DNA of 30,140 nucleotides. Source: a virus. Positions 3,732 through 29,953 of the stretch are shown here, piece after piece. The notes under the pieces are model-generated. The model searched no databases and was not told the origin of the DNA. It worked only from the letters and a program-made list of their open reading frames with translations. The DNA is taken from the IMG/VR virus record IMGVR_UViG_3300024518_001683, positions 1 to 30,140 of that record, one strand, 5' to 3'. How positions within the stretch are numbered: the stretch's first letter is position 1; every line of letters starts with the position of its first letter. The position numbers and the translations under genes are program-made.

Positions 3732-5099
3732 TTAGCTTACCTTGAAGTTCTCAACGACTGCAATAGATGCAGGGTGATTACATACTAGGACACCGAACGC
3801 TTGTAAGTAACTTACTACGTTGTTAACGTGTCCACCAGATGCGCCTGGCTTCAAGTGGAAGTCTGTTCCGCCTGGTGCCTTAACAGTAGTATAGTCAGTT
3901 CCTCTATATTCGAGAACCTTACCACCACTCTTAGCTTCTGGCTTAATGTACAACTTAGACTTAGGACAGTACTCAGAAGTATATGTCTCGATAGTGTCAT
4001 TGTTGTGTACGTATGCGAAGTAGTTAGTACCACGCTTATTGTCTTGGACTGTCTGGAAACGTCTATCAGTTTCACGAGACTCGATAAGAGTGTCATGAGC
4101 TTCTGGAGCCATACACATCATCTTCCAAGTATATTTACCCTGACCAGCTCGTACCTTAGTCTGGCTAAGTACTTTCTGAATATCAGATACGTCAAGAGTT
4201 GATCCACCAGCATCTCTTCGAGTCGCGCCTGAAGCACCGCTCATAGTAATACCGTGAATAGTACGTCCGTCATCAGCCGCTAGAGATTCTAGTCCTGCCA
4301 TAACTTCAGTAAGAGTTCCATAGTCTGCCACTGGAGCAGTCAAGTCTGGAATAGTAGGTTGTCCACTTCTATAGAAATGATCAGCATCTGCAACACCAGC
4401 AACAGTAACAGTTAATTCTGCACCAGCTGAGTCACGAGCAGATAAAGTAACTTCATCAGTATCTCTATCCTTGTCTTCAATCTTCCAATACGCGAAAGTA
4501 CCAGCAGATACAGTTGGAGCTGTTCCTGCAGTTGAATCTTCTGCATAATGATTAAGCTTATCACCAAACTCGAAGTAACCGATATGTCCTCTGTCTGCGT
4601 TGCCCGTCTTAAGAGAAACTACGATACGTCCAGAAGATAAAGTTGGAGTACCAGAAGAGATACCAGCAACACCAGAACCGTCTGCATAGTAATCAGCCGC
4701 CATTCTACGCTTAGAAGCGATAGTCTTATTCTGAATCTCAAACTCTAGAGGCTTAGCATAAGTCTCAGGAGACTGTTGTGCACGTTCCCACAAGTTATAT
4801 TCTAGGTCAATAGTCGCGTTAATTTCCTTGAACTTAGCAATGTTCTCAGAGATGCTAGACTGTTGTGCGTCTGGGAATGCTCTGTTAGACGTACCTGGAT
4901 CTGCCCACTGAATTGCACCTGGACCATAGTCTGTGGAGAATTGAAATCTGTATTCACGAGCTAAGCTGTTGCCTTCTCTTGAACTAAGTACGTTCTCCCA
5001 GTCACGATAGTCTTCACTAATTTGGTTCCGAACATTGTCGGAGAATACGATCTGGAGTAATGTACCTAGATCGAGTTGGTCTATATTATTAAATGCCAT
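3732..5099 (-). CDS. major capsid protein (N4 gp56-like / HK97-fold)
   Basis: At 455 residues, encoded immediately after portal and scaffold genes, this is the expected major capsid protein that assembles the procapsid shell. The N-terminus (LDLGTLLQIVFSDNVRNQIS), a long helical segment (residues about 85-130) with a YNLWERAQQSPETYAKPLEF stretch, and a C-terminal glycine-rich loop (FHLKPGASGGHVNN) before the last beta strands resemble N4-gp56-type capsid proteins. No N-terminal cleaved domain is obvious. The start ATG at 5099 has GGTAAG upstream. The capsid role is strongly supported by context and size; the subfamily is a judgement from recall. Confidence 0.82.
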   Translation of the reverse strand: MAFNNIDQLDLGTLLQIVFSDNVRNQISEDYRDWENVLSSREGNSLAREYRFQFSTDYGPGAIQWADPGTSNRAFPDAQQSSISENIAKFKEINATIDLEYNLWERAQQSPETYAKPLEFEIQNKTIASKRRMAADYYADGSGVAGISSGTPTLSSGRIVVSLKTGNADRGHIGYFEFGDKLNHYAEDSTAGTAPTVSAGTFAYWKIEDKDRDTDEVTLSARDSAGAELTVTVAGVADADHFYRSGQPTIPDLTAPVADYGTLTEVMAGLESLAADDGRTIHGITMSGASGATRRDAGGSTLDVSDIQKVLSQTKVRAGQGKYTWKMMCMAPEAHDTLIESRETDRRFQTVQDNKRGTNYFAYVHNNDTIETYTSEYCPKSKLYIKPEAKSGGKVLEYRGTDYTTVKAPGGTDFHLKPGASGGHVNNVVSYLQAFGVLVCNHPASIAVVENFKVS

Positions 5100-17049: not shown

Positions 17050-17078
17050 TTGACATCTAGTATGAAGTACAGTATACT
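17050..17078 (+). promoter_or_regulatory. rightward (early) consensus sigma-70 promoter
   Basis: TTGACA (17050-17055), 17-bp spacer, TATACT (17073-17078): 11/12 consensus. Transcription would start near 17085 and run through a leader of more than 1.1 kb before the first gene at 18256. That is remarkably long, unless the promoter drives an RNA product or an element in the region. Confidence 0.82.
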
Positions 17079-19793: not shown

Positions 19794-20206
19794 TGAGATA
19801 TCGTAAGCGAGATAATACAATGATAGGCAGCAACGTGACCTTCGGACTAGACGATCAATCAGGCTGGAGTTATGGCTGGTGGCAGGTTAGTAAACTAATT
19901 GGCGATACGATAGTATTCAATCAATACTTTTACGGACAAGCTACAAGCGGCCATCAGTGTAAGATTAGGAGGCTGTTAGATGCTGAGTATAAGGTGTTAG
20001 TAGTTGAAGCACCGGATGGATTACAAGCAGGACTAGAGCCATGTATCATGTATCATAAGAGACTAATTGTAGAGTTAGAAGAACAGATAGCTAAACCACG
20101 CACGAGGCGTACGACTAACGAACGTAGGCGGCAAGATATAAGTCAGCATAGGGACAAGATTGAAGCATTAAGAGACTTACAAGCAGTAGAGAAGGGAGCA
20201 GCGTAA
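19793..20206 (+). CDS. hypothetical protein with basic coiled-coil C-terminus
   Basis: This 137-residue protein has an N-terminal beta/aromatic part (LDDQSGWSYGWWQVSKLIGD). Its C-terminal half is helical and rich in Arg/Glu (RRTTNERRRQDISQHRDKIE). The start ATG overlaps the previous stop (TAATG) and follows GATAAGGAGAAC. It ends in TAATG with the next gene, so three genes are translationally linked. The function is unknown; nucleic-acid binding is possible from the basic helix. Confidence 0.65.
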   Translation: MRYRKRDNTMIGSNVTFGLDDQSGWSYGWWQVSKLIGDTIVFNQYFYGQATSGHQCKIRRLLDAEYKVLVVEAPDGLQAGLEPCIMYHKRLIVELEEQIAKPRTRRTTNERRRQDISQHRDKIEALRDLQAVEKGAA

Positions 20207-20388
20207 TGCGTGGTAAGAGTTTAACAAGTAAGGTATTCACTGCGCAATGGACCGTAGGATACTATGGCTGGGGAGAGGGTTACATGGACGCGTGTCGGGG
20301 ATATCGGGAATATATACAGCTCTGTAGATATCGTGGAATAATGAATGGCTGGCCTCTCGATGTGAAGGAGAACGAGAATTGGTACTAA
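20206..20388 (+). CDS. GW microprotein family member 1
   Basis: This 60-residue protein, coupled to the upstream gene by TAATG, shows the family core VGYYGWGEGYMDACRGY (residues 17-33). An N-terminal KSLTSKVFT element and a late MNGW segment are also present. Over a 53-base span its DNA shares two blocks (11 and 15 bp) at equal spacing with the member at 28302, so the two are recent relatives. There is no signal or membrane segment. The function is unknown. Confidence 0.8.
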   Translation: MRGKSLTSKVFTAQWTVGYYGWGEGYMDACRGYREYIQLCRYRGIMNGWPLDVKENENWY

Positions 20389-20397
20389 CAGCTTAAC

Positions 20398-20420
20398 TAT
20401 AAGTAACAGATTAATAGGAG
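20398..20420 (+). repeat. 23-bp leader repeat, copy 2
   Basis: Identical to 19544-19566 and likewise ends in the ribosome-binding site of the next gene (ATG at 20429). Confidence 0.7.
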
Positions 20421-20428
20421 AACATATA

Positions 20429-20632
20429 ATGACCTTAGCAGAAATTAGACTGATTAACACAGAGGAGGGAGTTAGAGAAGCTGTTGCTTATCTTGTATCT
20501 GTACAAGAGTTTCTAACCTTTGGAGAGGAGCGTGGCTTTGTTAGTGTCATTCGTGAGGCAGCACAGAAGATAGGGATAACCAATAAGCAGTTAATGGAAA
20601 TGTCAAGGGAGAACGTAACTACCGGACAGTAG
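20429..20632 (+). CDS. hypothetical helical protein
   Basis: This 67-residue protein is almost fully helical (EEGVREAVAYLVSVQEFLTF; GFVSVIREAAQKIGITNKQL). The last helices resemble a small helix-turn-helix (AAQKIGITNKQLMEMS), so DNA binding is possible but weakly supported. TAGGAG precedes the ATG within the repeated 23-bp leader. Confidence 0.68.
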   Translation: MTLAEIRLINTEEGVREAVAYLVSVQEFLTFGEERGFVSVIREAAQKIGITNKQLMEMSRENVTTGQ

Positions 20633-20676
20633 ATAGTCTACGCTCGTAATCAACAGCACTAGAAAAGGAAAGTAAC

Positions 20677-20988
20677 ATGAATGTAACATATAATGAAGCA
20701 CTAATAAGTAACTATGGGGAACTAATGCACCTACGATTACGGGTAGAGATGCTACGCGATAGCTTAGACATGATGCATGGCATGACACTAGAACAGATAC
20801 TACCAGCTCATGACTTGTCAATAGTCTTAGAAGATGATACGATGCTCGCGTGTAAGAGTGTAGATGATATCGAGAGGCTAATGATAATCGCGAGAGATAC
20901 TTGCAGCGAGTTAATTGAGGCAGCTAAGAAACTTGGAAGCGATGGGGTGCTTAAGATTAAGGGCAGTACAGAGACACTACTTAACTAA
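20677..20988 (+). CDS. hypothetical helical protein
   Basis: This 103-residue, leucine/methionine-rich, acidic helical protein (LMHLRLRVEMLRDSLDMMHG; DDIERLMIIARDTCSELIEA) has coiled-coil potential. No known domain. AAAAGGAAAGTAAC precedes the ATG. Confidence 0.68.
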   Translation: MNVTYNEALISNYGELMHLRLRVEMLRDSLDMMHGMTLEQILPAHDLSIVLEDDTMLACKSVDDIERLMIIARDTCSELIEAAKKLGSDGVLKIKGSTETLLN

Positions 20989-21007
20989 CAATGTAAGGAG
21001 AGTGGAG

Positions 21008-21409
21008 ATGAACGTGAATGAAATGGCAGATTCAATAATAGAAGAGTACACTAAGTACAGTACTGTAGAAATTGAACCGCATATACGCAGTTTCATAAGC
21101 AGAGATAGGGAGAGAGATACTATGAGCACTGTAGTGAAAAGTTACGAGGCTATGACAGGGGATACACAGGATAAGGAGCAGGGAATGTCAAAGGTTGATT
21201 ATAATGGTTGGAAGAACTACGAGACATGGGCAGTCAATGTCTTACTATCTAATAGTGAGTTTCTATATCAGGCGATGATAGATACTCGCAGCGAGGAAGA
21301 GTTACACGAGCTAGTAGTCGCGTGCATTGATCCAAGCGAGGGGATTAACTTAGCTATTGTAGATTATACAGAACTGTACACTAACTTACATGATGATGCA
21401 GGGGAATAG
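21008..21409 (+). CDS. NGWxNYETW (DUF7249-like) phage protein
   Basis: The 133-residue frame contains YNGWKNYETWAVNVLLSN (residues 65-82), the signature of a widespread small phage family annotated as DUF7249 (from memory). I use the ATG at 21008 (GGAG upstream). A second start at 21185 (M60) has AAGGAG at ideal six-base spacing and begins MSKVDYNGWKN, giving a 74-residue product of the size usual for the family. The first 59 residues may be an added leader or a separate product from one message. The function of the family is unknown to me. Confidence 0.75.
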   Translation: MNVNEMADSIIEEYTKYSTVEIEPHIRSFISRDRERDTMSTVVKSYEAMTGDTQDKEQGMSKVDYNGWKNYETWAVNVLLSNSEFLYQAMIDTRSEEELHELVVACIDPSEGINLAIVDYTELYTNLHDDAGE

Positions 21410-21426
21410 ATAGAGATGGAGAGATT

Positions 21427-21609
21427 ATGAAGGCAAGTAGTTTAACTGAGAAGCTAGAGCTAGCTAACTGCTCTGATCCTGGATATATAGGCTGGGATGA
21501 TGGGTATATGTATAACGCGAAGGGTTACGATGAGGCTGTAGATGTGAATATGAAGGGTCTATGTATGGATGGTTTCTTATTCTCTACAAGCATCGGTGAG
21601 ATGAGATAA
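21427..21609 (+). CDS. GW microprotein family member 2
   Basis: This 60-residue protein starts MKASSLTEKLE and carries the core PGYIGWDDGYMYNAKGY (residues 18-34) and a late CMDGFLF element. That order (N-terminal A-x-x-L-T, GWxxGYM, then MDGW/F) defines the family best. It follows the DUF7249-like gene by 17 bases with a GGAG-type site. Confidence 0.8.
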   Translation: MKASSLTEKLELANCSDPGYIGWDDGYMYNAKGYDEAVDVNMKGLCMDGFLFSTSIGEMR

Positions 21610-21623
21610 CGGGAGAATAAGAG

Positions 21624-21803
21624 ATGATAGCAGTAACACTAGTAGACTACCCTTTTACCCACAGTTATGCTCCAGGTTATTGGAGTTGGGGATCTGGTTA
21701 TATGAGGAGACAGCTGGGGTATCCTGATATCTCTGATATACACGAGCGAGTGGAGTGCATGGACGGTTGGATGCTTATGGAGAAACGGACAGATTATAGA
21801 TAA
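21624..21803 (+). CDS. GW microprotein family member 3
   Basis: This 59-residue protein (MIAVTLVDYPFTHSYAPGYW...) has core PGYWSWGSGYMRRQLGYPD and late CMDGWML, directly alignable to member 2. ATG at 21624 follows GGGAGAATAAGAG. Members 2 and 3 are adjacent and form a tandem pair. Confidence 0.8.
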   Translation: MIAVTLVDYPFTHSYAPGYWSWGSGYMRRQLGYPDISDIHERVECMDGWMLMEKRTDYR

Positions 21804-21857
21804 AAGGATACGTAGCTAGACTACGCTCAGTAACGTGTAAGGAGAGCAACTCACATC

Positions 21858-21908
21858 TACGTAACAAGTATACTCCCGTTACGGGAGTGTATAGTATCAG
21901 AAAAGGAG
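21858..21908 (+). promoter_or_regulatory. 51-nt repeated leader with hairpin, copy 1
   Basis: A perfect stem ACTCCCG/CGGGAGT closes a TTA loop and is flanked by conserved sequence ending in AAAAGGAG, the ribosome site of the gene at 21915. A copy with about four changes lies at 22295-22345. The hairpin just before the ribosome site could control translation or mark an RNA-processing site. Confidence 0.65.
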
Positions 21909-21914
21909 AGTAAC

Positions 21915-22283
21915 ATGATTCAAGTTAGTAGTAGAATACAGATTAGAAGCGAGGGACTAGACAAGCATGTCATCATACTAGATGGCGTAGTGCGAGACGG
22001 TGTATACACCACAATGGGAGAGGTGATTGATGCGATAGAGAAGATACGTGCAGGTCTCAAGAAGAAGATACCAGTTAGAGCAATGGGAGCTAATACTACC
22101 TTCTTCGCGGATAAGATACATGCAGATGCGCGAGAAGCTTCGAGGGTTCAACGCCAATGGGTTGCGCATAGTGTGTACTCTTATGATAAGATAGTTGAGA
22201 AGAATAGAGAGAGAAGGGTTAAGAGAAGTGATGATCTTACTCCTCAATCAATCGAGGATCTATTCGATAAGAGAGGGGGATAG
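21915..22283 (+). CDS. hypothetical basic protein
   Basis: This 122-residue protein has an N-terminal beta domain (SRIQIRSEGLDKHVIILDG) and a basic helical C-terminal half (YDKIVEKNRERRVKRSDDL) ending SIEDLFDKRGG. There is no known domain. Its translation is preceded by the repeated 51-nt hairpin leader. Confidence 0.68.
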   Translation: MIQVSSRIQIRSEGLDKHVIILDGVVRDGVYTTMGEVIDAIEKIRAGLKKKIPVRAMGANTTFFADKIHADAREASRVQRQWVAHSVYSYDKIVEKNRERRVKRSDDLTPQSIEDLFDKRGG

Positions 22284-22294
22284 TAACTTACAGA

Positions 22295-22345
22295 TACGTA
22301 ACAAGTATACGCCCGTTACGGGAGTAGACAGTATCAGAAAAGGAG
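22295..22345 (+). promoter_or_regulatory. 51-nt repeated leader with hairpin, copy 2
   Basis: Second copy of the leader at 21858-21908. The CCCG/CGGG stem core and TTA loop are kept and the ends match exactly (TACGTAACAAGTA...AGTATCAGAAAAGGAG), while outer stem bases changed. It precedes the gene at 22356. A degenerate GCCCGTTGTGGG occurs before the gene at 22623. Confidence 0.65.
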
Positions 22346-22355
22346 GGAGTAGAGT

Positions 22356-22568
22356 ATGAACGGAACTAGAATTAGAGCATTTACATATGACGGGAGCGGG
22401 GAGTGGGGAGTGGTGTATATGGCAGCAGTACCTCATAGATATGTGGGGAGGAGACTTATGTGGAGACTAATTTGCGACGAATTAACATTCCCCCTTGACA
22501 ATCATACATCAGAACTATATATTAAATGGAGAGTAGAGAGAGTACATGACAACACATTAGCTAGATAA
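22356..22568 (+). CDS. divergent GW microprotein candidate
   Basis: This 70-residue protein begins MNGTRIRAFTYDGSGEWGVVYM and continues AAVPHRYVGRRLMWRL. The GEWGVVYM segment resembles the family core, but the N-terminal A-x-x-L-T and the MDGW element are absent, so membership is weak. AAAAGGAGGG precedes the start. Inside it a TTGACA-17-TATATT promoter-like site (22495-22523) points toward the next gene. Confidence 0.6.
   Translation: MNGTRIRAFTYDGSGEWGVVYMAAVPHRYVGRRLMWRLICDELTFPLDNHTSELYIKWRVERVHDNTLAR
22495..22523 (+). promoter_or_regulatory. candidate sigma-70 promoter inside small gene
   Basis: TTGACA (22495-22500), 17-bp spacer, TATATT (22518-22523), 11/12 consensus. It would drive the DUF6745-like gene at 22623. 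It lies within a coding sequence, so the match could be chance. Confidence 0.45.
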
Positions 22569-22622
22569 GTAGAACGATAAGCCCGTTGTGGGAATATCAG
22601 CACACAATTAAGGAGGCCATTA

Positions 22623-23981
22623 ATGACTACAACGATTAAGAACATCATGAGTAAGATCGAGACAGAGAAGCCAGACATATATAAGTCTATACTTGCAAGC
22701 GCAGCACTTAAGCCAGAGAAGCTAGGGGTATTAACTCCCGAGCAGGAAGCAGTTAAGGCGTACTTCAAGGAAGCCTACGTTCCATATGGACATGACACAC
22801 TAACGGGGGATGAAGATTATAATTACTCCTTCGAGCAGTACTGTAACATTATGACAGACATCGACAGGACCGCGCCTAAGTATGGTTACTTCCTAGTTGA
22901 GTCGCAGCTGGGTATCAATCGTCTCTGTTCTCTGATATACGACAGACGTACAGCGGGTATCGTTGACGATCACTTCCCCACAGAGCTGCTACCTAAAGGA
23001 TTCGATCCCGAAGAGTATGCTAAGGGTAATATCCCTGACGGTTCCTTTGATCGTATCATCAAGACCGAAGACATCTTAGCATTTATTAAGCGAGAGTATA
23101 ATGACAAGGGTAATACCCTATCTCATGACTCTAGTAACATAGTACATGGTGGCGTACATGATGCAGGTTGGATTGCACACTATCAGTACTTACGCTATGT
23201 TGGTGGTATCGAGACTGCTCGCAACATTGACTTCATGTGTGAATTCTCTAAGGATATAGGCTGGTGGGCACCCTTCGAAGACTTCCTACTCATGCAGATG
23301 AAGCCGACTATCTGTAAGGTTGAAGAAGAAGAACGCAGACCTATGGCAGGGTATAGAATGCACAGCTTCGATGGTCCTTCAATCAAGTGGCGTGATGGTA
23401 CTTACCTAAACTACATCTACGGTGTTAAGATTGATAATGATGCTATCGTTAACTTAGACAAGGATTCTACTGAGTTAGCGAACATGTACTTCACTGAGCA
23501 GAATGCTGAAGTTAGACTTGCGATTGGCTCTAAGGTGGGACTTGATAGATTAGCTGAGAAGATGCCACAGACTGTACTCGATACTACTACACTCGACAAG
23601 TTCCCTATTGTACTAGCAGACTTTCAGAGAAGAGAGGAGGGTAAGCCTTTCGTCTTCACTAATGCAGACGGAGTTGATGTAACAGTTGATGCTGGGGTTA
23701 AGGAAGAACTTCCACCATGGTCTCTTACAAGTAGCGGTTCACTTGATACGAATGCAGTAGCATATACGCTGCTCGATATTGAGATGGCAGATGGTACACA
23801 AGAGAGGTACTTGAAGATGGGTAACGCGAGTGAAGATAAGATTCACATTGAGTGCGTAACTCAGGAATGTAATTCTGTACTTGATGCGCTCGCATTCAGG
23901 TGGGGTATCACGACTGAAGAATTCAGTGAAGTGGTTGGGTATGAGAATGGGGTATACACCAAGTTCTCAGCATTAGCATAG
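22623..23981 (+). CDS. DUF6745-like protein
   Basis: The 452-residue protein resembles DUF6745 proteins of bacteria. It shows HDAGWIAHYQYLRYVGG (residues 179-195), DIGWWAPFEDFLLMQMKP (211-228), the GPSIKWRDGTYLNYIYGV segment (251-268) and NAEVRLAIGSKVGLDRL (294-310), in the expected order. The C-terminal part (VLDALAFRWG) matches the family's usual end. The biochemical role of DUF6745 is not known to me. AAGGAGG six bases upstream makes the start certain. In bacteria the family is commonly next to a small GHxH/HEEH protein; the same partner is encoded about 280 bases downstream. Confidence 0.75.
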   Translation: MTTTIKNIMSKIETEKPDIYKSILASAALKPEKLGVLTPEQEAVKAYFKEAYVPYGHDTLTGDEDYNYSFEQYCNIMTDIDRTAPKYGYFLVESQLGINRLCSLIYDRRTAGIVDDHFPTELLPKGFDPEEYAKGNIPDGSFDRIIKTEDILAFIKREYNDKGNTLSHDSSNIVHGGVHDAGWIAHYQYLRYVGGIETARNIDFMCEFSKDIGWWAPFEDFLLMQMKPTICKVEEEERRPMAGYRMHSFDGPSIKWRDGTYLNYIYGVKIDNDAIVNLDKDSTELANMYFTEQNAEVRLAIGSKVGLDRLAEKMPQTVLDTTTLDKFPIVLADFQRREEGKPFVFTNADGVDVTVDAGVKEELPPWSLTSSGSLDTNAVAYTLLDIEMADGTQERYLKMGNASEDKIHIECVTQECNSVLDALAFRWGITTEEFSEVVGYENGVYTKFSALA

Positions 23982-23988
23982 CTCGCGT

Positions 23989-24016
23989 ACTCGCTCTGCA
24001 TTGTGTCGGAGCGAGT
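23989..24016 (+). terminator. hairpin after DUF6745-like gene
   Basis: ACTCGCTC (23989-23996) pairs perfectly with GAGCGAGT (24009-24016) around a 12-nt loop, starting eight bases after the stop codon. The following bases (TACTTAGG) are not a U-run, so it may be a partial terminator or processing site. Confidence 0.45.
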
Positions 24017-24052
24017 TACTTAGGGGAGCATAGCATAATGTGAGGAGGATGT

Positions 24053-24220
24053 ATGGGAGCACTAAGAGTAGGCCTGACGAGTGGACTTGATGGTACATGG
24101 GGAATATATCAGAAGAGGCGTAAGGGAGATGTCTGGATCATATGGAATGGGCGAACAGATCCATTCACTTCATGGAGAATCCAACTGGAGATTAAGCAGC
24201 AACAGAGACATACGCAATAG
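24053..24220 (+). CDS. small Trp-rich protein (GW family, weak)
   Basis: This 55-residue protein (MGALRVGLTSGLDGTWGIYQ...) has a GTWGIY segment and WIIWNGRTDPFTSWR, rich in Trp and Gly. It sits between the DUF6745-like gene and its partner. GAGGAGG precedes the ATG at short spacing. It is similar in size and composition to GW microproteins, but the core motif is only partial. Confidence 0.6.
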   Translation: MGALRVGLTSGLDGTWGIYQKRRKGDVWIIWNGRTDPFTSWRIQLEIKQQQRHTQ

Positions 24221-24262
24221 GGCGTACGTATAGATAAGAACAGTATGAAAAGGAGTAACAGT

Positions 24263-24640
24263 ATGAGAGTAATTAACATGAACACAGCAGGCACACATGG
24301 TGATGTAAATGTCAGACCATTCAATGGTAAGCTAGATCTGAGTAAGCTTAAGAAGCGTGACTCAAACTGCTTAGCATATGGAGAAGTCACAGGGCATAAG
24401 CATGCATTCGGAACTACCCACACAGCACCGCTAGAGTACACTGGTGATCAGCTCAAGGGTACATCGTATGCTATCTACGACAACGAAGCTACGGGTGAGA
24501 CCTTCGCAGTAGTGGAGAAGACTACGCCACTATCTCATGAGGAGCATCTGACTATCAACGTGGAACCAGGTGTGTACAAGATCGGGATTGCACAGCAGCT
24601 TGATCCTTTCTCGAAGCGTATCGAGCAAGTCGCGGACTAA
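24263..24640 (+). CDS. GHxH/HEEH partner of DUF6745
   Basis: The 125-residue protein has HGDV near the N-terminus (residues 12-15), GEVTGHKHAF (40-49) and LSHEEHLTINVEPGVYKIGI (90-109). It ends LDPFSKRIEQVAD. This matches the small family found beside DUF6745 in bacteria (usually HGDV, GExTGHAH, HEEH...G.Y, YD.F...RxVxD; from memory). Five conserved histidines suggest metal binding (inference). Start at 24263 is chosen because AAAAGGAG lies seven bases upstream; an ATG at 24245 would overlap that site. Confidence 0.75.
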   Translation: MRVINMNTAGTHGDVNVRPFNGKLDLSKLKKRDSNCLAYGEVTGHKHAFGTTHTAPLEYTGDQLKGTSYAIYDNEATGETFAVVEKTTPLSHEEHLTINVEPGVYKIGIAQQLDPFSKRIEQVAD

Positions 24641-24644
24641 TTAA

Positions 24645-24663
24645 CGAACCTTAAGTAGGTTCG
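24645..24663 (+). other. short hairpin downstream of the HEEH gene
   Basis: CGAACC (24645-24650) and GGTTCG (24658-24663) form a 6-bp stem with a 7-nt loop a few bases after the stop. No U-tract is present. Confidence 0.35.
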
Positions 24664-24722
24664 GAGTTACGAGTGACAGCCGATTAAAGAGCGCCTTAAG
24701 CGGCCTACTATAAGGAGACTGT

Positions 24723-24872
24723 ATGTCAGCACAAGAAACGACACTTGGTAGAGAAGAGTGGGGAGGACAGGGCTGGGGTTGGAATCGTGATTGGTTATCC
24801 TACGGTAGATATCACCACTTACATCCAGTTAACCCGTGGATATGTATTCCTCTACGAGATGAGTATATATAA
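24723..24872 (+). CDS. GW microprotein family member 4
   Basis: This 49-residue protein (MSAQETTLGREEWGGQGWGW...) is Trp-rich, with core GGQGWGWNRDWLSYGRY. AAGGAG five bases before the ATG. The N-terminal signature is altered, but the GWGW followed by a Tyr-rich stretch fits. It overlaps nothing and ends ten bases before the next start. Confidence 0.7.
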   Translation: MSAQETTLGREEWGGQGWGWNRDWLSYGRYHHLHPVNPWICIPLRDEYI

Positions 24873-24882
24873 GGAGACAGAT

Positions 24883-25062
24883 GTGGAAGCAAGTAGCGTA
24901 AATGACTTCGCCTATACAGGCACCTGGCCTCTTGATCGTAAGCTGACAAGTGGTAGATATAGCTGGGGAGCCTCTACGTACACGCTCTACAGATTTCGTG
25001 ATAAGCAGTTTCCGCAGTTTCCTTGGATGATGGATGAGCTATGGTATGAACAGCGAGTATAA
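24883..25062 (+). CDS. GW microprotein family member 5 (GTG start)
   Basis: This 59-residue protein with GTG start reads VEASSVNDFAYTGTWPLDRK and contains LTSGRYSWGASTYTLYRF, a divergent form of the core, then PWMMDELWY. AAGGAG lies six bases before the GTG. A longer in-frame start at 24745 overlaps member 4 and has no ribosome site, so I reject it. The VxAxxV start matches members at 25568, 26572 and 28938. Confidence 0.68.
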   Translation: MEASSVNDFAYTGTWPLDRKLTSGRYSWGASTYTLYRFRDKQFPQFPWMMDELWYEQRV

Positions 25063-25076
25063 GGAGGAGGTATATA

Positions 25077-25568
25077 ATGCTTGTATTAATGGGTAACATA
25101 TTAGTACTAATACTAACAACAGCATTCGACTTGGGGATGACACTAAGTAATGGGCAGGAACTACTAGTGCGAGAGATACTAACATCCTCTCAATTAGACT
25201 CCGTTGATGACAATAGACTACTCATGTCAATCATCTCAGCAGAGAGTGACTTCAAGCAGACAGCTATCAGTAACAGGAACGCTTATGGCTTGATGCAGCT
25301 AACGAGGCCAGCAGTTATAGACGCAGCTAGAGAGTGTGGATTATCTGAGACAATTAAGATGACTGAACTACTTGACGTACATAAGAATGTAATGTATGGT
25401 ACATGTTATCTGAAGAAGTTAATCAGAGAAGAAGACAGTAACTACGTAGCAGTACTAGCAATTTACAATGGTGGGTATAGGCAGTTGAATCTACTGAAGA
25501 GAGATAAGAGATTAGCATCAGAGACTGCACAATTTATAACCGAAGTAATGTATAAGGGAGGCTTATAG
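25077..25568 (+). CDS. lytic transglycosylase (SLT domain) with N-terminal signal/anchor
   Basis: The 163-residue protein has a hydrophobic N-terminus (MLVLMGNILVLILTTAFDLG) that could be a signal or signal-anchor. An SLT/lysozyme-like domain follows: catalytic Glu56 in IISAESDFKQTA, then AYGLMQLT (69-76) and VLAIYNGGYRQL (126-137). It would cleave peptidoglycan glycan strands, in the periplasm if exported. It is encoded in the rightward block rather than with late genes, so it may act as an exported endolysin or in cell-wall remodelling. AAGGAGGAGG precedes the ATG. Confidence 0.85.
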   Translation: MLVLMGNILVLILTTAFDLGMTLSNGQELLVREILTSSQLDSVDDNRLLMSIISAESDFKQTAISNRNAYGLMQLTRPAVIDAARECGLSETIKMTELLDVHKNVMYGTCYLKKLIREEDSNYVAVLAIYNGGYRQLNLLKRDKRLASETAQFITEVMYKGGL

Positions 25569-25741
25569 TGGACGCAACAGCACTAACAGGATATAAGAAG
25601 GGCTTCGACACGGGCGGAGGAGCTACTGACTGGGGACATGAGTATATGCTACATCAGGGGGGTGCTACTCAGTACGCTGCGGTGTGTATGTATCTTCTAG
25701 TAACACACGAAACTAAGTATATGTATGCATACAGTATATAA
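25568..25741 (+). CDS. GW microprotein family member 6 (GTG start)
   Basis: This 57-residue protein starts at a GTG overlapping the transglycosylase stop (TAGTG). It reads VDATALTGYKKGFDTGGG, then ATDWGHEYMLHQGG, a clear WGxxYM core with the x-A-x-x-L-T N-terminus. The C-terminus is Tyr/Met-rich (THETKYMYAYSI). The overlap implies translational coupling to the lytic enzyme gene. Confidence 0.75.
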   Translation: MDATALTGYKKGFDTGGGATDWGHEYMLHQGGATQYAAVCMYLLVTHETKYMYAYSI

Positions 25742-25806
25742 GCAGTCACGTCCTGCGAAGTGTACGAACTAAGCATAAGGGAAGCACACAGTATGTAAGC
25801 AGTAAC
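25728..25806 (+). repeat. imperfect 22-bp direct repeat
   Basis: 25728-25749 and 25785-25806 match at about 19 of 22 positions around CAGTAT(A/G)TAAGCAGT. The first copy spans the stop of the preceding gene. It looks like a small local duplication upstream of the ClpP-like gene. Confidence 0.5.
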
Positions 25807-25832
25807 AATAACAGTAAATGGAGAGTAAGTAA

Positions 25833-26555
25833 ATGAGTAATGTAATCACGAGACTATTAGTATTAGCAGCAGGGATACTACTTGTAACGACAAGTGTAGG
25901 AGCAGCGAAGCCTATCTTCACAGTGAAGAATGCGAAGCAGGTAGTCATATTAAATGACGTAATCCAAGGAGCATACGCAGCAAGCTTAGCATCACAGATC
26001 AGTAGCCTAGCACAGGACAAGGGAGCTACTAACATAGACATTATAATCAACAGTCCTGGTGGTAGTATCGTAGCTGGTATGTTCATCGTATCTGCAATCG
26101 AGAGAGTGAAGAGTAGGGGAGTAGTAGTGAGGTGCGCGGTTCCACGCTTCGCAGCAAGCATGGCATTCCAGATTCTAAGCCACTGCAGCGAGAGGTATAT
26201 ATTACCCCAAGCATTCGTACTATGGCATCCACCCCGAGTAGCTCTGATGTATGCGATCATTACACCAGAAGCAGCACGAGGATTACTAGCATCGCTTGCA
26301 GACTGGGAGAATGTACTAGTCACGCAGCTTAAGAAGCAGATGAATATAAACTCGCGGAAGTTTAAGTCGTACTACAATGCAGAGAAGTTAGTGTTGGGTA
26401 GTGAGTTAGTTGAGATCACTGAAGGATTCGCAACCGTAGTAGATGACATACGAGGCATACCCGATACAGCGTGGGTAGATGGTAGGAAGAAGAGTAGAGG
26501 AGCACGAGGACTTGTACCCTTCGAACTAGATTATACCTGTACTAACTGTAGATAG
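25833..26555 (+). CDS. ClpP/crotonase-superfamily serine protease-like protein with signal peptide
   Basis: The 240-residue protein begins with a typical signal peptide (MSNVITRLLVLAAGILLVTT, then SVGAAKP; cleavage likely after A24 or A25). The ClpP-like fold follows: IINSPGGSIVAGM (71-83), nucleophile candidate Ser109 in RFAASMAF, and His132 in FVLWHPP. The position of the third catalytic Asp of ClpP has no obvious Asp. The C-terminus has a CTNC pair. Exported ClpP-like phage proteases are unusual; it may act in the periplasm or membrane. GGAGAGTAAGTAA precedes the ATG. Confidence 0.8.
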   Translation: MSNVITRLLVLAAGILLVTTSVGAAKPIFTVKNAKQVVILNDVIQGAYAASLASQISSLAQDKGATNIDIIINSPGGSIVAGMFIVSAIERVKSRGVVVRCAVPRFAASMAFQILSHCSERYILPQAFVLWHPPRVALMYAIITPEAARGLLASLADWENVLVTQLKKQMNINSRKFKSYYNAEKLVLGSELVEITEGFATVVDDIRGIPDTAWVDGRKKSRGARGLVPFELDYTCTNCR

Positions 26556-26571
26556 ACTAGGAGATATAATA

Positions 26572-26739
26572 GTGAGAGCAGAGAAGATGGTAGAGTGGGA
26601 CGTGGGCGGCTTCAGTTGGGGAAGAGATTATATGAGTGGACAAGTGGGGTGGCGACTACCAGCAGCATACTATAGGCACCTATCCATGCCCATAGCAGGG
26701 TGGACACAACGAGAAGTAATATGGGAGATGTGCGTATGA
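26572..26739 (+). CDS. GW microprotein family member 7 (GTG start)
   Basis: This 55-residue protein with GTG start reads VRAEKMVEWDVGGFSWGRDY and continues MSGQVGWRLP. The core is FSWGRDYM. A Trp-rich end (AGWTQREVIWEMCV) corresponds to the MDGW region of other members. TAGGAG lies upstream. Its stop overlaps the next ATG (ATGA). Confidence 0.78.
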   Translation: MRAEKMVEWDVGGFSWGRDYMSGQVGWRLPAAYYRHLSMPIAGWTQREVIWEMCV

Positions 26740-26867
26740 GCGGAGAACAGAGTATAGATGTAAGCGATTTCAATATGCCTGATGTATACTGGAAAGGCTG
26801 TCCTAACTACTTACAGATTATGGAGACCGGCTTACTTATGATAACGGATGAGGAGCTGCGACAATGA
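26736..26867 (+). CDS. hypothetical microprotein, tandem duplicate A
   Basis: This 43-residue protein (MSGEQSIDVSDFNMPDVYWK...) overlaps both neighbours by ATGA. Its first 20 residues match the next gene (MSGEQSLDTRDFNEARAYWW), showing a tandem duplication. It is acidic and helical at the C-terminus. Unknown function; the ATGA overlaps make translation likely. Confidence 0.65.
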   Translation: MSGEQSIDVSDFNMPDVYWKGCPNYLQIMETGLLMITDEELRQ

Positions 26868-27004
26868 GCGGAGAACAGAGCTTAGATACAAGAGACTTCA
26901 ATGAGGCTAGAGCATATTGGTGGGAGGCACGAGATACCCACCTTCACTCAAGGTTCATGTATCGTTTACTATGTAGCGAGACATTCGGGGAGATGCGCGT
27001 ATGA
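26864..27004 (+). CDS. hypothetical microprotein, tandem duplicate B
   Basis: This 46-residue paralogue of the preceding gene shares MSGEQS(I/L)D and DFN...YW, then diverges (EARDTHLHSRFMYRLLCSET). It ends GEMRV with ATGA overlap to the next gene, mirroring the way the upstream gene ends EMCV. The boundary itself was therefore duplicated. Confidence 0.65.
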   Translation: MSGEQSLDTRDFNEARAYWWEARDTHLHSRFMYRLLCSETFGEMRV

Positions 27005-27189
27005 ACAGTGTTAACTTAACAAGTAGTGTATTCAGGCTACCCGCAACAGGCATTACTCATTGCTACTGGGGATGGGGATGGGGTTATATGTACCGTGAGC
27101 TGGGGTATGATGGTGCTGTCGATTCCCGGGGTCGAGGTAAGATGCATGCTAGGGTACTTACAGAGAAGCGTTGGAGGCTATATGAGTAA
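27001..27189 (+). CDS. GW microprotein family member 8
   Basis: This 62-residue protein starts MNSVNLTSSVFRL and has the strongest core, CYWGWGWGYMYRELGYDGAV. It overlaps the previous gene by ATGA and the next by eight bases. The VNLTSSVF start aligns with KSLTSKVF of member 1. No signal or membrane helix. Confidence 0.82.
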   Translation: MNSVNLTSSVFRLPATGITHCYWGWGWGYMYRELGYDGAVDSRGRGKMHARVLTEKRWRLYE

Positions 27190-27544
27190 CTGCACATGTG
27201 ACGTTTACATCACAGGCTGTACCTGTGGGTTCTTCGCGCTGGAACAAGCTAGTAAACTAAGTGGCAAGCCTATCACCTATACGGGAGCAGACGATCCTTG
27301 TACACGTGAAGATACTACAAGTAAGAAGCTAGTACAGTCTACGCAAGGAAGTAGTACAACAGTCAAGACATTAGGAGCTACGCATCAAGGAGGCAGGACG
27401 TATAGCAGAGTAGAGTTGCCCTGTGAGTCAGCGGCTTGGAAGAACTACTTAGCAGATCCGACTAACTTATTCTGGAAGACTAAGGTACTTGAAGAATTTG
27501 AGCGTCATGTGACAGCCTACGCAACTGCTCAGGGGAATCCGTAA
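27182..27544 (+). CDS. hypothetical Cys-rich protein
   Basis: This 120-residue protein begins MSNCTCDVYITGCTCGFFAL; the C-x-C...C-x-C pattern at residues 4-14 suggests metal or disulfide binding. The rest is Thr/Ser-rich, with a helical C-terminus (KTKVLEEFERHVTAYATAQG). GGAGG precedes the ATG at 27182; a longer in-frame start at 27026 only shadows the preceding gene. Its last 46 bases are duplicated downstream. Confidence 0.68.
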   Translation: MSNCTCDVYITGCTCGFFALEQASKLSGKPITYTGADDPCTREDTTSKKLVQSTQGSSTTVKTLGATHQGGRTYSRVELPCESAAWKNYLADPTNLFWKTKVLEEFERHVTAYATAQGNP

Positions 27545-27625
27545 CCATGCGAATCGAGTATGCAATACGAGACAGAGCAGAGCGTCATGTGACAGCATAC
27601 GCAACTGCTCAGAAGAATCCGTAAC
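27500..27625 (+). repeat. 46-bp direct repeat of a gene end
   Basis: 27500-27545 and 27580-27625 match at 43 of 46 positions and encode the same C-terminus (ERHVTAYATAQ(G/K)NP and stop). The 34 bases between them are unrelated. This is the scar of a tandem duplication followed by an internal deletion of the second gene. Confidence 0.8.
27547..27624 (+). pseudogene. remnant of duplicated Cys-rich gene (25 aa)
   Basis: The ATG at 27547 opens MRIEYAIRDR and then the duplicated tail ERHVTAYATAQKNP. It has no clear ribosome site but starts just after the stop of the full gene. It is probably a decayed copy, although a coupled 25-residue product is possible. Confidence 0.5.
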
Positions 27626-27647
27626 TATATAGAGGAGAGAGATCATA

Positions 27648-27878
27648 ATGAAAGCAGAAGCACTAGTATATAGCGATTACGGCATTGATAACTATCCATA
27701 CAGTCCTCATGCAGGTAACTCTCATTGGGGATCAATAAGAGGGTGTACTCCTCCTTATTCTTATGGACCATGCGAATTTATGCATTGCTATATAGTACAT
27801 GATGGCCTCCTTCACTACCCTGGAAGAAGAGACGCAGCTTACAAGACAGATAAGGAGATAGTAACATGGACGCAGTAA
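27648..27878 (+). CDS. GW-related microprotein, SHWG subtype A
   Basis: This 76-residue protein starts MKAEALVYSDYG, contains HAGNSHWGSIRGCTPPYSYG (residues 21-40) and a later VHDGLL. The next gene has the same layout (AGESHWG, PSYSYG, MDGYVL), so the two are paralogues. They form a subtype of the GW family with SHWG in place of GWG. GGAGAGAG precedes the ATG; the end overlaps the next start by 13 bases. Confidence 0.75.
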   Translation: MKAEALVYSDYGIDNYPYSPHAGNSHWGSIRGCTPPYSYGPCEFMHCYIVHDGLLHYPGRRDAAYKTDKEIVTWTQ

Positions 27879-28099
27879 CATTAGCAACGAGACGTATGAG
27901 AATTTACCCTAATGTATTCAGTACATATGCTGGAGAGAGTCATTGGGGAATACCAACAGGCGGAGCTGTGCAGTATGTTCCTTCTTATTCTTACGGATTC
28001 ATTAGTGAGAGTAGGATCATGGACGGGTATGTATTAAGAGAAATTTGGCAACCAGACGGCTGGATAAGATACTCAACAGATAAGGGACTTAACAGATAA
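27866..28099 (+). CDS. GW-related microprotein, SHWG subtype B
   Basis: This 77-residue protein starts MDAVTLATRRMRI and has YAGESHWGIPTGGAVQYVPS (residues 21-40), then YSYGF and IMDGYVL. The N-terminal x-A-x-x-L and late MDGY tie it to the GW family. AAGGAGATAGTAAC precedes the ATG, the same leader as the following gene. Confidence 0.78.
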   Translation: MDAVTLATRRMRIYPNVFSTYAGESHWGIPTGGAVQYVPSYSYGFISESRIMDGYVLREIWQPDGWIRYSTDKGLNR

Positions 28100-28111
28100 G
28101 GAGATAGTAAC

Positions 28112-28315
28112 ATGGGTGAAGTAATATACTTACATAAGAAGAGAGAAGAGAAGAAGACAGAAGAACTAGTGAAGAAGACAGATGCAGTCGAGGCACTACT
28201 CACAGCATTCAGACTTAATCAGAAGTCAGAAGATAGACTAGAGCGTGAGCGGATACGAGACAATGCAAGAGTGAAGAGATCGTATAGACTAGGGAGTAAG
28301 GATGATGCGGAGTAA
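28112..28315 (+). CDS. hypothetical charged helical protein
   Basis: This 67-residue, Lys/Glu/Arg-rich protein (YLHKKREEKKTEELVKKTDA; SEDRLERERIRDNARVKRSY) is probably one long helix or coiled coil. No family recognised. AAGGAGATAGTAAC leads to the ATG; the end overlaps the next gene. Confidence 0.68.
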   Translation: MGEVIYLHKKREEKKTEELVKKTDAVEALLTAFRLNQKSEDRLERERIRDNARVKRSYRLGSKDDAE

Positions 28316-28505
28316 CACGAGACTAGTAGATGAGGTATTCACTCAGCCCTACATGTCAAGCCACAGGGGATGGGGAGAGGGTTACTTGCCCAACAACGGG
28401 GAGGAGCTACGTAGGCCTGCATATGTGATACAATTCTTAGAGATGAATATTCTCAATGAGATAGATATGTACGAATCACTAGATTATAAACTGGAGACGA
28501 AGTAA
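28302..28505 (+). CDS. GW microprotein family member 9
   Basis: This 67-residue protein (MMRSNTRLVDEVFTQPYMSS...) contains HRGWGEGYLPNNGEEL. DEVFT and GWGEGY lie at exactly the same distance as in member 1 (KVFT...GWGEGY), and the DNA is also conserved there. Either of two adjacent ATGs could be used (28302 or 28305); GGGAG is upstream. The C-terminal half is acidic and unlike other members. Confidence 0.78.
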   Translation: MMRSNTRLVDEVFTQPYMSSHRGWGEGYLPNNGEELRRPAYVIQFLEMNILNEIDMYESLDYKLETK

Positions 28506-28819
28506 TGAAGAGTATTAAATTCCAATTCAAGCTTAACCCTGCAACTTCTCAAGTAGACGAGGCGATAGTGTACTTCGCTAACTTGACGGGCAAGGGAGTA
28601 AGAGAGTATGTTAGGATGGCTGTCGAAGAACGTACAGCACAGCTAGCGCAGGCACTTAGAGAACAAGCACAAGAACAGTTAGATGCTGAAGAACGAATAG
28701 AGGGAGATACTACTATTGAAGAATCTGAGGGAGATGTACAGACTAGCGGGACACAGAGCATTCAGAGCGACGAGACGACAGAGACAAGTGATGATACTGG
28801 GACCGTCCCCAGTAGCTGA
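28505..28819 (+). CDS. hypothetical protein with RHH-like N-terminus and acidic tail
   Basis: The 104-residue protein has a beta strand (KSIKFQFKLN) followed by two helices (DEAIVYFANLTGKGVREYVR; MAVEERTAQLAQALREQAQ), an order like ribbon-helix-helix or ParR-type DNA-binding proteins. A 45-residue Glu/Asp/Ser/Thr-rich tail follows. The start overlaps the previous stop (TAATG). DNA binding is only suggested. Confidence 0.6.
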   Translation: MKSIKFQFKLNPATSQVDEAIVYFANLTGKGVREYVRMAVEERTAQLAQALREQAQEQLDAEERIEGDTTIEESEGDVQTSGTQSIQSDETTETSDDTGTVPSS

Positions 28820-28925
28820 TAAGTATGTAGGATACTATGTTGGTGCAGAGAATGAGTCTGATTTAAAGTTCTTCGACTGTGAGGAAGAGGACGTGTGGAG
28901 TAGCATGACGACACTATTAGAGTAA
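28791..28925 (+). CDS. hypothetical acidic microprotein
   Basis: This 44-residue protein (MILGPSPVADKYVGYYVGAE...) is acidic at the C-terminus (FDCEEEDVW). The ATG at 28791 overlaps the end of the preceding gene by 29 bases and has only a weak ribosome site, so coupling is assumed. It fills the gap before the next GW gene. Confidence 0.5.
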   Translation: MILGPSPVADKYVGYYVGAENESDLKFFDCEEEDVWSSMTTLLE

Positions 28926-28937
28926 AAGGAGTATATA

Positions 28938-29099
28938 GTGAGAGCACTTACAGCAGAAGCATTTACAGGAAGACCTCTCCGAAGAGATGGGTTCCTAACT
29001 TGGGGAGGATTCGGTTGGGGTATAGAGAGGATGCTGACCGCCTCCGAATTAGTCCTATACGGATGGATACAGACTGATAAGATCAGGGAGCAGAGATGA
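28938..29099 (+). CDS. GW microprotein family member 10 (GTG start)
   Basis: This 53-residue protein with GTG start reads VRALTAEAFTGRPLRRDGFL, then TWGGFGWGIERMLTASEL and YGWIQTDK. The core FGWGIERM has Glu-Arg in place of the usual Gly-Tyr. AAAAGGAG precedes the GTG. Its stop overlaps the next ATG (ATGA). Confidence 0.75.
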   Translation: MRALTAEAFTGRPLRRDGFLTWGGFGWGIERMLTASELVLYGWIQTDKIREQR

Positions 29100-29155
29100 G
29101 AGCAATACAGACAAGTAACTGCTGCGATATGCGGAGAAAAGGAGCAGCTACGTGA
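29096..29155 (+). CDS. 19-residue mini reading frame
   Basis: ATGA-coupled frame MRAIQTSNCCDMRRKGAAT whose first four residues equal those of its neighbours (MRAI). It is probably a truncated GW gene or a coupling leader that delivers ribosomes to the next GTG start, which overlaps its stop (GTGA). Confidence 0.4.
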   Translation: MRAIQTSNCCDMRRKGAAT

Positions 29156-29307
29156 GAGCAATTAACGCACTAGGGAGGCACACATCAGGCTGGTTCAGAT
29201 CGTGGAACTATGAACAGGCACCTTTCCTCTATGGTCTTCCCATATATAGTAGTAACATAATGGAGACTTGGATATTAGGGACAGTTGATATAGAGATGCG
29301 ATATTAA
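29152..29307 (+). CDS. GW microprotein family member 11 (GTG start)
   Basis: This 51-residue protein with GTG start reads VRAINALGRHTSGWFRSWNY and continues EQAPFLYGLP, ending with METWILGTVDIEMRY. SGWFRSWNY is a degenerate core. AAAAGGAG lies seven bases upstream. The VRA start and W-I-L end place it in the family, with lower confidence than members 1-3 and 8. Confidence 0.65.
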   Translation: MRAINALGRHTSGWFRSWNYEQAPFLYGLPIYSSNIMETWILGTVDIEMRY

Positions 29308-29326: not shown

Positions 29327-29953
29327 ATGATTATAGGATTAGACGATTACATACATGAGATAACAAGCACTCAGCGTGCGTTGGCAGCAGAGGAGATACG
29401 TAATGGAAGAGATGTGTATCCCTCACCATTCGCTGCGGAATACCTAAGCGCACTGCGGTTAACCCCCTTAGATAGGTGCAGAGTAGTGATACTTGGTAAC
29501 GCACCCTCACCCGAAGACGTGTCAAGGATGACGGTCTCTTCACGTGTGAATCAAGCAGAGCACTCAGCATTATCCTATACAGAGTCTAAGTATAGGAGCA
29601 AGTTTAGTGAGCTACTCGGGGGAGTAGATGTAACAATAAGACTCATGAAGTCATGGGCGAAGCAGGGAGTACTACTTCTTAATAGACACTTGACAAGTAA
29701 TGTAACCTGGGGATGGGAGACAGTTACAGATTCTATTCTTAATTTACTTGACAGTCTAGGAAGAGATATAGTATATGTAATGATGGGTAGAGAAATGGAG
29801 AACGTGATCACTCGTAACGTACAGAATATCAAGCAAGCCATCATCCTACCCCACCCTACACGTAAGGACTTCATGAAGCAGAACATGTTCGACTTAATTG
29901 ATACGGGATTACTTAACTTGGGATATGAAGAGGGGATACAATGGACGCAATAA
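29327..29953 (+). CDS. family-1 uracil-DNA glycosylase homologue lacking catalytic motif
   Basis: The 208-residue protein aligns along its length with family-1 UDG: VYPSPFAAEYLSAL (30-43), RVVILG (52-57), SWAKQGVLLLN (109-119), GWETVTDSILNLL (129-141), LPHPTRKDF (174-182). The GQDPYH motif that supplies the water-activating Asp is here GNAPSP (57-62), so Asp is Ala59 and Tyr is Ser61. Asn119 and His176 remain. It probably binds DNA or uracil without normal cleavage (inference). TAGGAGC precedes the ATG. Host or phage UDG-like roles in replication, or a decoy, are possible. Confidence 0.85.
   Translation: MIIGLDDYIHEITSTQRALAAEEIRNGRDVYPSPFAAEYLSALRLTPLDRCRVVILGNAPSPEDVSRMTVSSRVNQAEHSALSYTESKYRSKFSELLGGVDVTIRLMKSWAKQGVLLLNRHLTSNVTWGWETVTDSILNLLDSLGRDIVYVMMGREMENVITRNVQNIKQAIILPHPTRKDFMKQNMFDLIDTGLLNLGYEEGIQWTQ

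Follow-up and report, generated by a model that had tools for sequence, protein, structure and literature searches.

Do the short proteins with a glycine- and tryptophan-containing core that are encoded in the rightward gene block of the virus record IMGVR_UViG_3300024518_001683 form one family, and what would so many copies be doing in so small a genome? The window analyzed here is the whole of that IMG/VR record (30,140 bases), which is classified there only as "virus". An earlier note on this DNA had proposed at least 11, and about 15, genes for such GW microproteins, scattered among unrelated genes. The rightward block does hold one real paralogous GW family, with copies spread across 9 kb among unrelated genes as proposed; the count, however, stands at ten genes with firm membership and at most 14 overall.

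One Paralogous Family

Since the GW motifs were defined post hoc, from the sequences themselves, the fair test is a profile blind to the member being tested. A profile built from the five seed genes of the earlier note (named, as all genes here, by their first coordinate: 20206, 21427, 21624, 26572, and 27001) was searched over all six frames and recovered further members at 28302/28305 (E value 9.4e-5) and 25568 (0.0016), the best antisense frame reaching 0.56. Leave-one-out profiles over six frames recovered six of the six members then used, with E values from 9.3e-17 to 1.6e-3, while the best decoys among 16,160 shuffled frames lay between 0.014 and 0.11. When seven seeds were used, the next ranks fell to 27866 (0.028) and 28938 (0.037), ahead of the best decoy at 0.077, and each of these two genes outscored 300 of 300 shuffles of its own composition. 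Together, the leave-one-out profiles and the shuffles establish homology among the GW proteins.

The core itself is far from random expectation. The pattern WG..YM occurs in six plus-strand open reading frames (ORFs) and in no minus-strand ORF, against an average of 0.012 in residue shuffles of the right-block ORFs; its DNA form, TGGGGANNNGNNTAYATG, occurs six times and was absent from 100 dinucleotide shuffles. The earlier note would have been contradicted by failure of the profile or by a motif equally frequent in antisense or shuffled frames, and neither was found. Seven divergent candidates also score jointly above their own shuffles (Fisher combined p 0.007), compared with p 0.58 for the remaining right-block genes. 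Two genes, 24053 (p 0.85) and 29941 (p 0.54), gained no support for membership from comparison with their own shuffles.

The firm set is made up of seven core members of 55-66 residues, two genes admitted by shuffles (27866 and 28938), and one admitted through its paralog (27648). All are on the plus strand. The gene at 20206..20388 encodes 60 residues with the core GWGEGYM and a later MNGW (leave-one-out E value 1.9e-11); its Shine-Dalgarno (SD) site is AAGGGAG, and its start overlaps the preceding stop. Farther right come 21427..21609 (60 residues, GWDDGYM, MDGF; 2.1e-12; codon log-likelihood ratio +17 nats) and 21624..21803 (59 residues, SWGSGYM, MDGW; 9.3e-17), which serves as the reference sequence. 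Two core members begin with GTG: 25568..25741 (57 residues, DWGHEYM; 0.0016), joined to the gene of an SLT-domain protein by a TAGTG overlap, and 26572..26739 (55 residues, SWGRDYM; 3.3e-4), joined to the following gene by ATGA. The gene at 27001..27189 (62 residues, GWGWGYM; 1.7e-7) has an ATGA overlap with the gene before it, and 28305..28505 encodes 66 residues, or 67 from an ATG at 28302, with the core GWGEGYL (five-seed E value 9.4e-5; its leave-one-out score was matched by none of 300 shuffles). The divergent member 28938..29099 (53 residues, GTG start) carries FGWGIERM, and the SHWG-type member 27866..28099 (77 residues) carries MDGY. Its tandem paralog 27648..27878, also of the SHWG type (76 residues, 37% identical), joins the family via that pair only, its own p being 0.11.

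Beyond these ten, two genes are marginal: 24723..24872, whose 49 residues include five tryptophans (p 0.023 against its own shuffles), and 24883..25062, with 59 residues, a GTG start, and the sequence YSWGAS (p 0.020). Two others are weak candidates, both at p 0.056, namely 22356..22568 (70 residues, with WG..YM in the form EWGVVYM) and 29152..29307 (51 residues, GTG start, MRAINALG). A 19-residue ORF at 29096..29155 (MRAIQTSNCCDMRRKGAAT) joins 28938 and 29152 through ATGA and GTGA overlaps; it is unsupported by the profile (p 0.37) and is possibly the remnant of a GW copy.

Coding Character and Gene Arrangement

Every member is preceded by a GGAG-type SD-like site at normal spacing. The codon log-likelihood is above zero in every member, whereas it is negative in all 55 antisense ORFs of at least 45 residues, the highest of which reaches -0.03 per codon. 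The first two codon positions are better conserved than the third, and conservation in the family therefore acts at the level of the protein. All members lie in the rightward non-structural block, of whose genes they make up about a quarter, and none is found in the leftward block with the terminase and the portal. Coupling by overlap, which the earlier note had reported as frequent, is borne out by stops and starts that overlap or abut at 20206, 25568, 26736, 26864, 27001, and 28305.

A very different account of the repeated core would be that there is no protein family at all, and that a DNA or RNA element such as a promoter or processing site has been repeated and is open in one frame by coincidence. 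The core can indeed be detected in the DNA, as TGGGGANNNGNNTAYATG and in the repeats D1 and D3. Yet each time the motif is read in one and the same frame of an ORF with an SD site, its tryptophan falling between residues 16 and 25; conservation extends beyond the core to the N-terminal and late motifs; codon positions 1 and 2 exceed position 3 in conservation; all members, unlike the 55 antisense ORFs, have coding-like codon usage; and Rfam returned no match. An RNA element misread as protein is rejected, and the account as a whole is hardly credible.

Features of the Proteins

The family pattern runs from M-x-[AGS]-x-x-L-[TV] through a loop of variable length and a Gly/aromatic run to W-G-x-[GDE]-Y-M, usually with G-Y after a further four residues. 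In the block, M-x-A begins the protein in 12 of 21 genes of up to 80 residues but in none of the 15 that are longer (Fisher p 3e-4). Several members also carry the late MDGW/MDGF motif, in the general form M-[DN]-G-[WFY], 18 residues past the core. Between members, the loop before the tryptophan and the C-terminal tail vary in length. Divergence is steep: identity to the reference 21624 ranges from 22 to 42%, which brings synonymous sites near saturation and puts the paralogs beyond the reach of dS estimates. Diversifying selection, suggested in the earlier note, has the standing of a hypothesis.

The proteins are soluble by composition. No membrane segment was found among the candidates scanned, in agreement with the earlier note, the highest 19-residue Kyte-Doolittle average being 0.91; on this value, a membrane or secreted phage peptide of the holin or superinfection-exclusion kind is rejected. 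The GW members share no conserved set of cysteines or histidines. Isoelectric points range from 4.2 to 9.9, which argues against a single polyanion ligand common to all and fits different partners without showing them. A DNA-mimic role for the whole family is rejected as well, because the charge is not consistently acidic.

Search for Relatives

The absence of any described family, suspected from the start, was upheld: 14 candidates compared with Pfam, PHROGs, NCBIfam, and PADLOC gave no match better than an E value of 0.1. A profile search of the PDB returned only values of 0.34 to 0.41, for 22 positions aligned with a 35-residue spider peptide and regarded as chance, and tblastn of the family consensus against INPHARED gave a single 15-residue match (E value 2). 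IMG/VR, scanned with an alignment and with three DNA patterns, and GTDB contigs, scanned with one DNA pattern, revealed no GW relative; these patterns require a near-exact core, and divergent relatives would escape them. The patterns in records L003, L011-L022, L023, L028, and L029 are chance occurrences that lie out of frame, are interrupted by stops, or belong to unrelated proteins or to the end of a DNA-polymerase-like sequence. A profile search of about 1,175 genomes (385 of one alphaproteobacterial class and 395 each from the Streptomyces class and the Dyadobacter phylum) found no members, a weak negative given that the host of the phage is not identified. The open-access literature yielded no description of the family, and no orthologs of GW members were found in the collections searched.

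Scans of virus contigs with the terminase large subunit (TerL), the portal, and the DUF6745 protein gave one close relative only, IMGVR_UViG_3300033149_002496, whose terminase and portal are 77% and 85% identical to those of this phage. That record, however, is a 10.5-kb structural-side fragment that stops short of the rightward block and is silent on the GW family. Four records with distant portal matches (about 22-28%) contain no GW member. By sequence comparison, the GW family is novel with respect to all the resources searched.

Origin and Possible Roles

Paralogs that agree in a residue also share its codon 51% of the time, where codon usage predicts 38% (the pairs are not independent), an excess that suggests that the copies arose by duplication inside this lineage. 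Tandem duplicates occur in the rightward block at 27648/27866 and 26736/26864. The second pair (26736-26867 and 26864-27004) lies between two GW genes; its ATGA-coupled paralogs both start with MSGEQS and are not GW members by profile. Through a 49-nt direct repeat (27500-27548 and 27580-27628), gene 27182 has its 3' end (ERHVTAYATAQ..NP-stop) repeated beyond the gene itself, apparently a partial duplication.

We favor the view that the GW proteins are host-directed early accessory proteins multiplied by duplication, and give it a tentative probability of about 0.42. They would constitute a lineage-specific, soluble accessory family of a small podovirus, in which local duplication copied an ancestor about 55 codons long again and again in the rightward block, the duplicates then dispersing among other rightward genes. 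Each copy would have retained the M-x-A-x-x-L-T stretch and the W-G-x-x-Y-M core, the latter likely the nucleus of one fold, while flanks and net charge diverged, so that the copies may present variable surfaces, each binding another host protein or another form of a single one. Early production, followed by action on the host in takeover or counter-defence, is inferred from the parallel with small proteins that phages make early, among them those of the SPO1 takeover module; the near-consensus promoter-like site that heads the rightward block (17050-17078) is counted in favor of this view. On the other side of the balance, no homolog of known function was found in the collections searched, relaxed constraint in redundant copies would give equal divergence, and AlphaFold, run with the family alignment, produced no confident fold in two monomer models (predicted local distance difference test, pLDDT, 45.3 and 43.7). 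A C-terminal beta hairpin is drawn in both models, but most of it has a pLDDT of only about 50-60, and it is not relied on.

The same divergence might instead reflect a selfish or near-neutral expansion, in which duplication is easy, selection weak, and most copies redundant and decaying. The steepness of the divergence, the short or unrecognisable candidates 24723, 29152, and the 19-residue ORF at 29096, and the duplicated gene end at 27500/27580 all suggest active duplication and decay. Nevertheless, each of the ten firm copies is an unbroken ORF that has an SD site and a codon score above zero, core members keep identical core positions under stronger conservation of codon positions 1 and 2 than of 3, and phage genomes are compact; we regard this expansion as doubtful. 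Co-assembly of the paralogs during infection, through the Gly/aromatic core, into a hetero-oligomeric ring, filament, or shell is an unlikely explanation. Homotypic packing would be well served by a conserved core with variable flanks and similar lengths, and co-expression by translational coupling, but the copies are dispersed over the block among unrelated genes, and the pre-tryptophan loop and C-terminal tail differ in length. The single interspersion of members, often overlapping the start or stop of a neighbor, recalls yet another role, that of nucleic-acid-associated or transcription/translation modulators of the phage's own genes, each copy acting on its neighborhood. Positive charge is inconsistent across the family, however, no match to a known DNA- or RNA-binding family appeared in the libraries scanned, and no common DNA element lies beside each copy, which leaves such self-regulation distinctly improbable.

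A bolder form of host-directed action is conceivable, although unlikely: W-G-x-x-Y-M might be a new small domain used as a scaffold, with at least ten copies each re-targeted to another host protein, amounting to a library of binders within one genome.

Genome Setting

The structural side of the genome occupies a minus-strand block from about 16891 down to 1521, with a P22/SU10-type portal and the terminase large subunit; for the probable major capsid protein at 3732-5099, position and size are the only grounds. On the plus strand, inspection of ORFs and SD sites indicates about 38 mostly small genes between 18256 and the right end. Besides the GW genes, this non-structural block encodes a DUF7249 protein (21008), a DUF6745 protein (22623), the SLT-domain protein (25077), and a Clp-type protease (25833-26555). 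The top PHROG matches of the protease are head maturation proteases; N-terminal to its protease domain, a signal-peptide-like stretch is seen by eye. At 29327-29953 (plus strand) lies a distant uracil-DNA-glycosylase-like protein, which matches phrog_12143 (function unknown there) and shares 26-31% identity with phage proteins, two of which, from Acinetobacter phage records, bear the annotation ung (uracil-DNA glycosylase).

Two divergent sigma-70 promoter-like sites, both recognized by consensus match only, separate the structural and small-gene blocks. The plus-strand site at 17050-17078 matches the consensus at 11 of 12 positions (TTGACA-17-TATACT) and reads into the rightward block, and the minus-strand site at 16991-16963 is a perfect consensus; the pair suggests a host that reads the sigma-70 consensus. 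A 68-nt intergenic repeat (21841-21908 and 22278-22345, 87% identical) stands directly 5' of each of two consecutive genes and holds a 7-bp hairpin, ACTCCCGTTACGGGAGT, imperfect in the second copy. A degenerate third copy may sit near 22578-22602, as seen by eye. The repeat is possibly an operator or an mRNA-processing site.

Comparison with Known Systems and Significance

Accessory genes of other small podoviruses include orphan ORFs (ORFans) that are short, belong to no known family, lie between conserved genes, and often overlap through ATGA. The GW genes resemble them in length, position, and overlaps, but such ORFans are usually single-copy, whereas the GW family has come to fill a substantial share of its block. 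Orphan small accessory proteins of phages are a kind already known; the unusual part is their multiplication within one genome.

The host-takeover module of Bacillus phage SPO1 comprises 26 genes and was defined by position, early expression, and toxicity (PMC6873191). The hallmarks of its characterised genes include small size, clustering, and strong ribosome-binding sites (PMC6873191). The GW block likewise gathers many small proteins behind strong ribosome-binding sites, and several SPO1 products inhibit different host processes (PMC6873191). In contrast to that module, at least ten GW genes share one ancestor, and they are known here from sequence alone. To our knowledge, no single paralogous family makes up the SPO1 module.

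Should the copies bind different targets, they would offer a compact natural scaffold for new binders and a clear example of a small phage that builds its host-interaction kit by duplication and not by acquiring unrelated genes. Even otherwise, ten orphan paralogs in 30 kb provide a way into the origin and divergence of small viral proteins.

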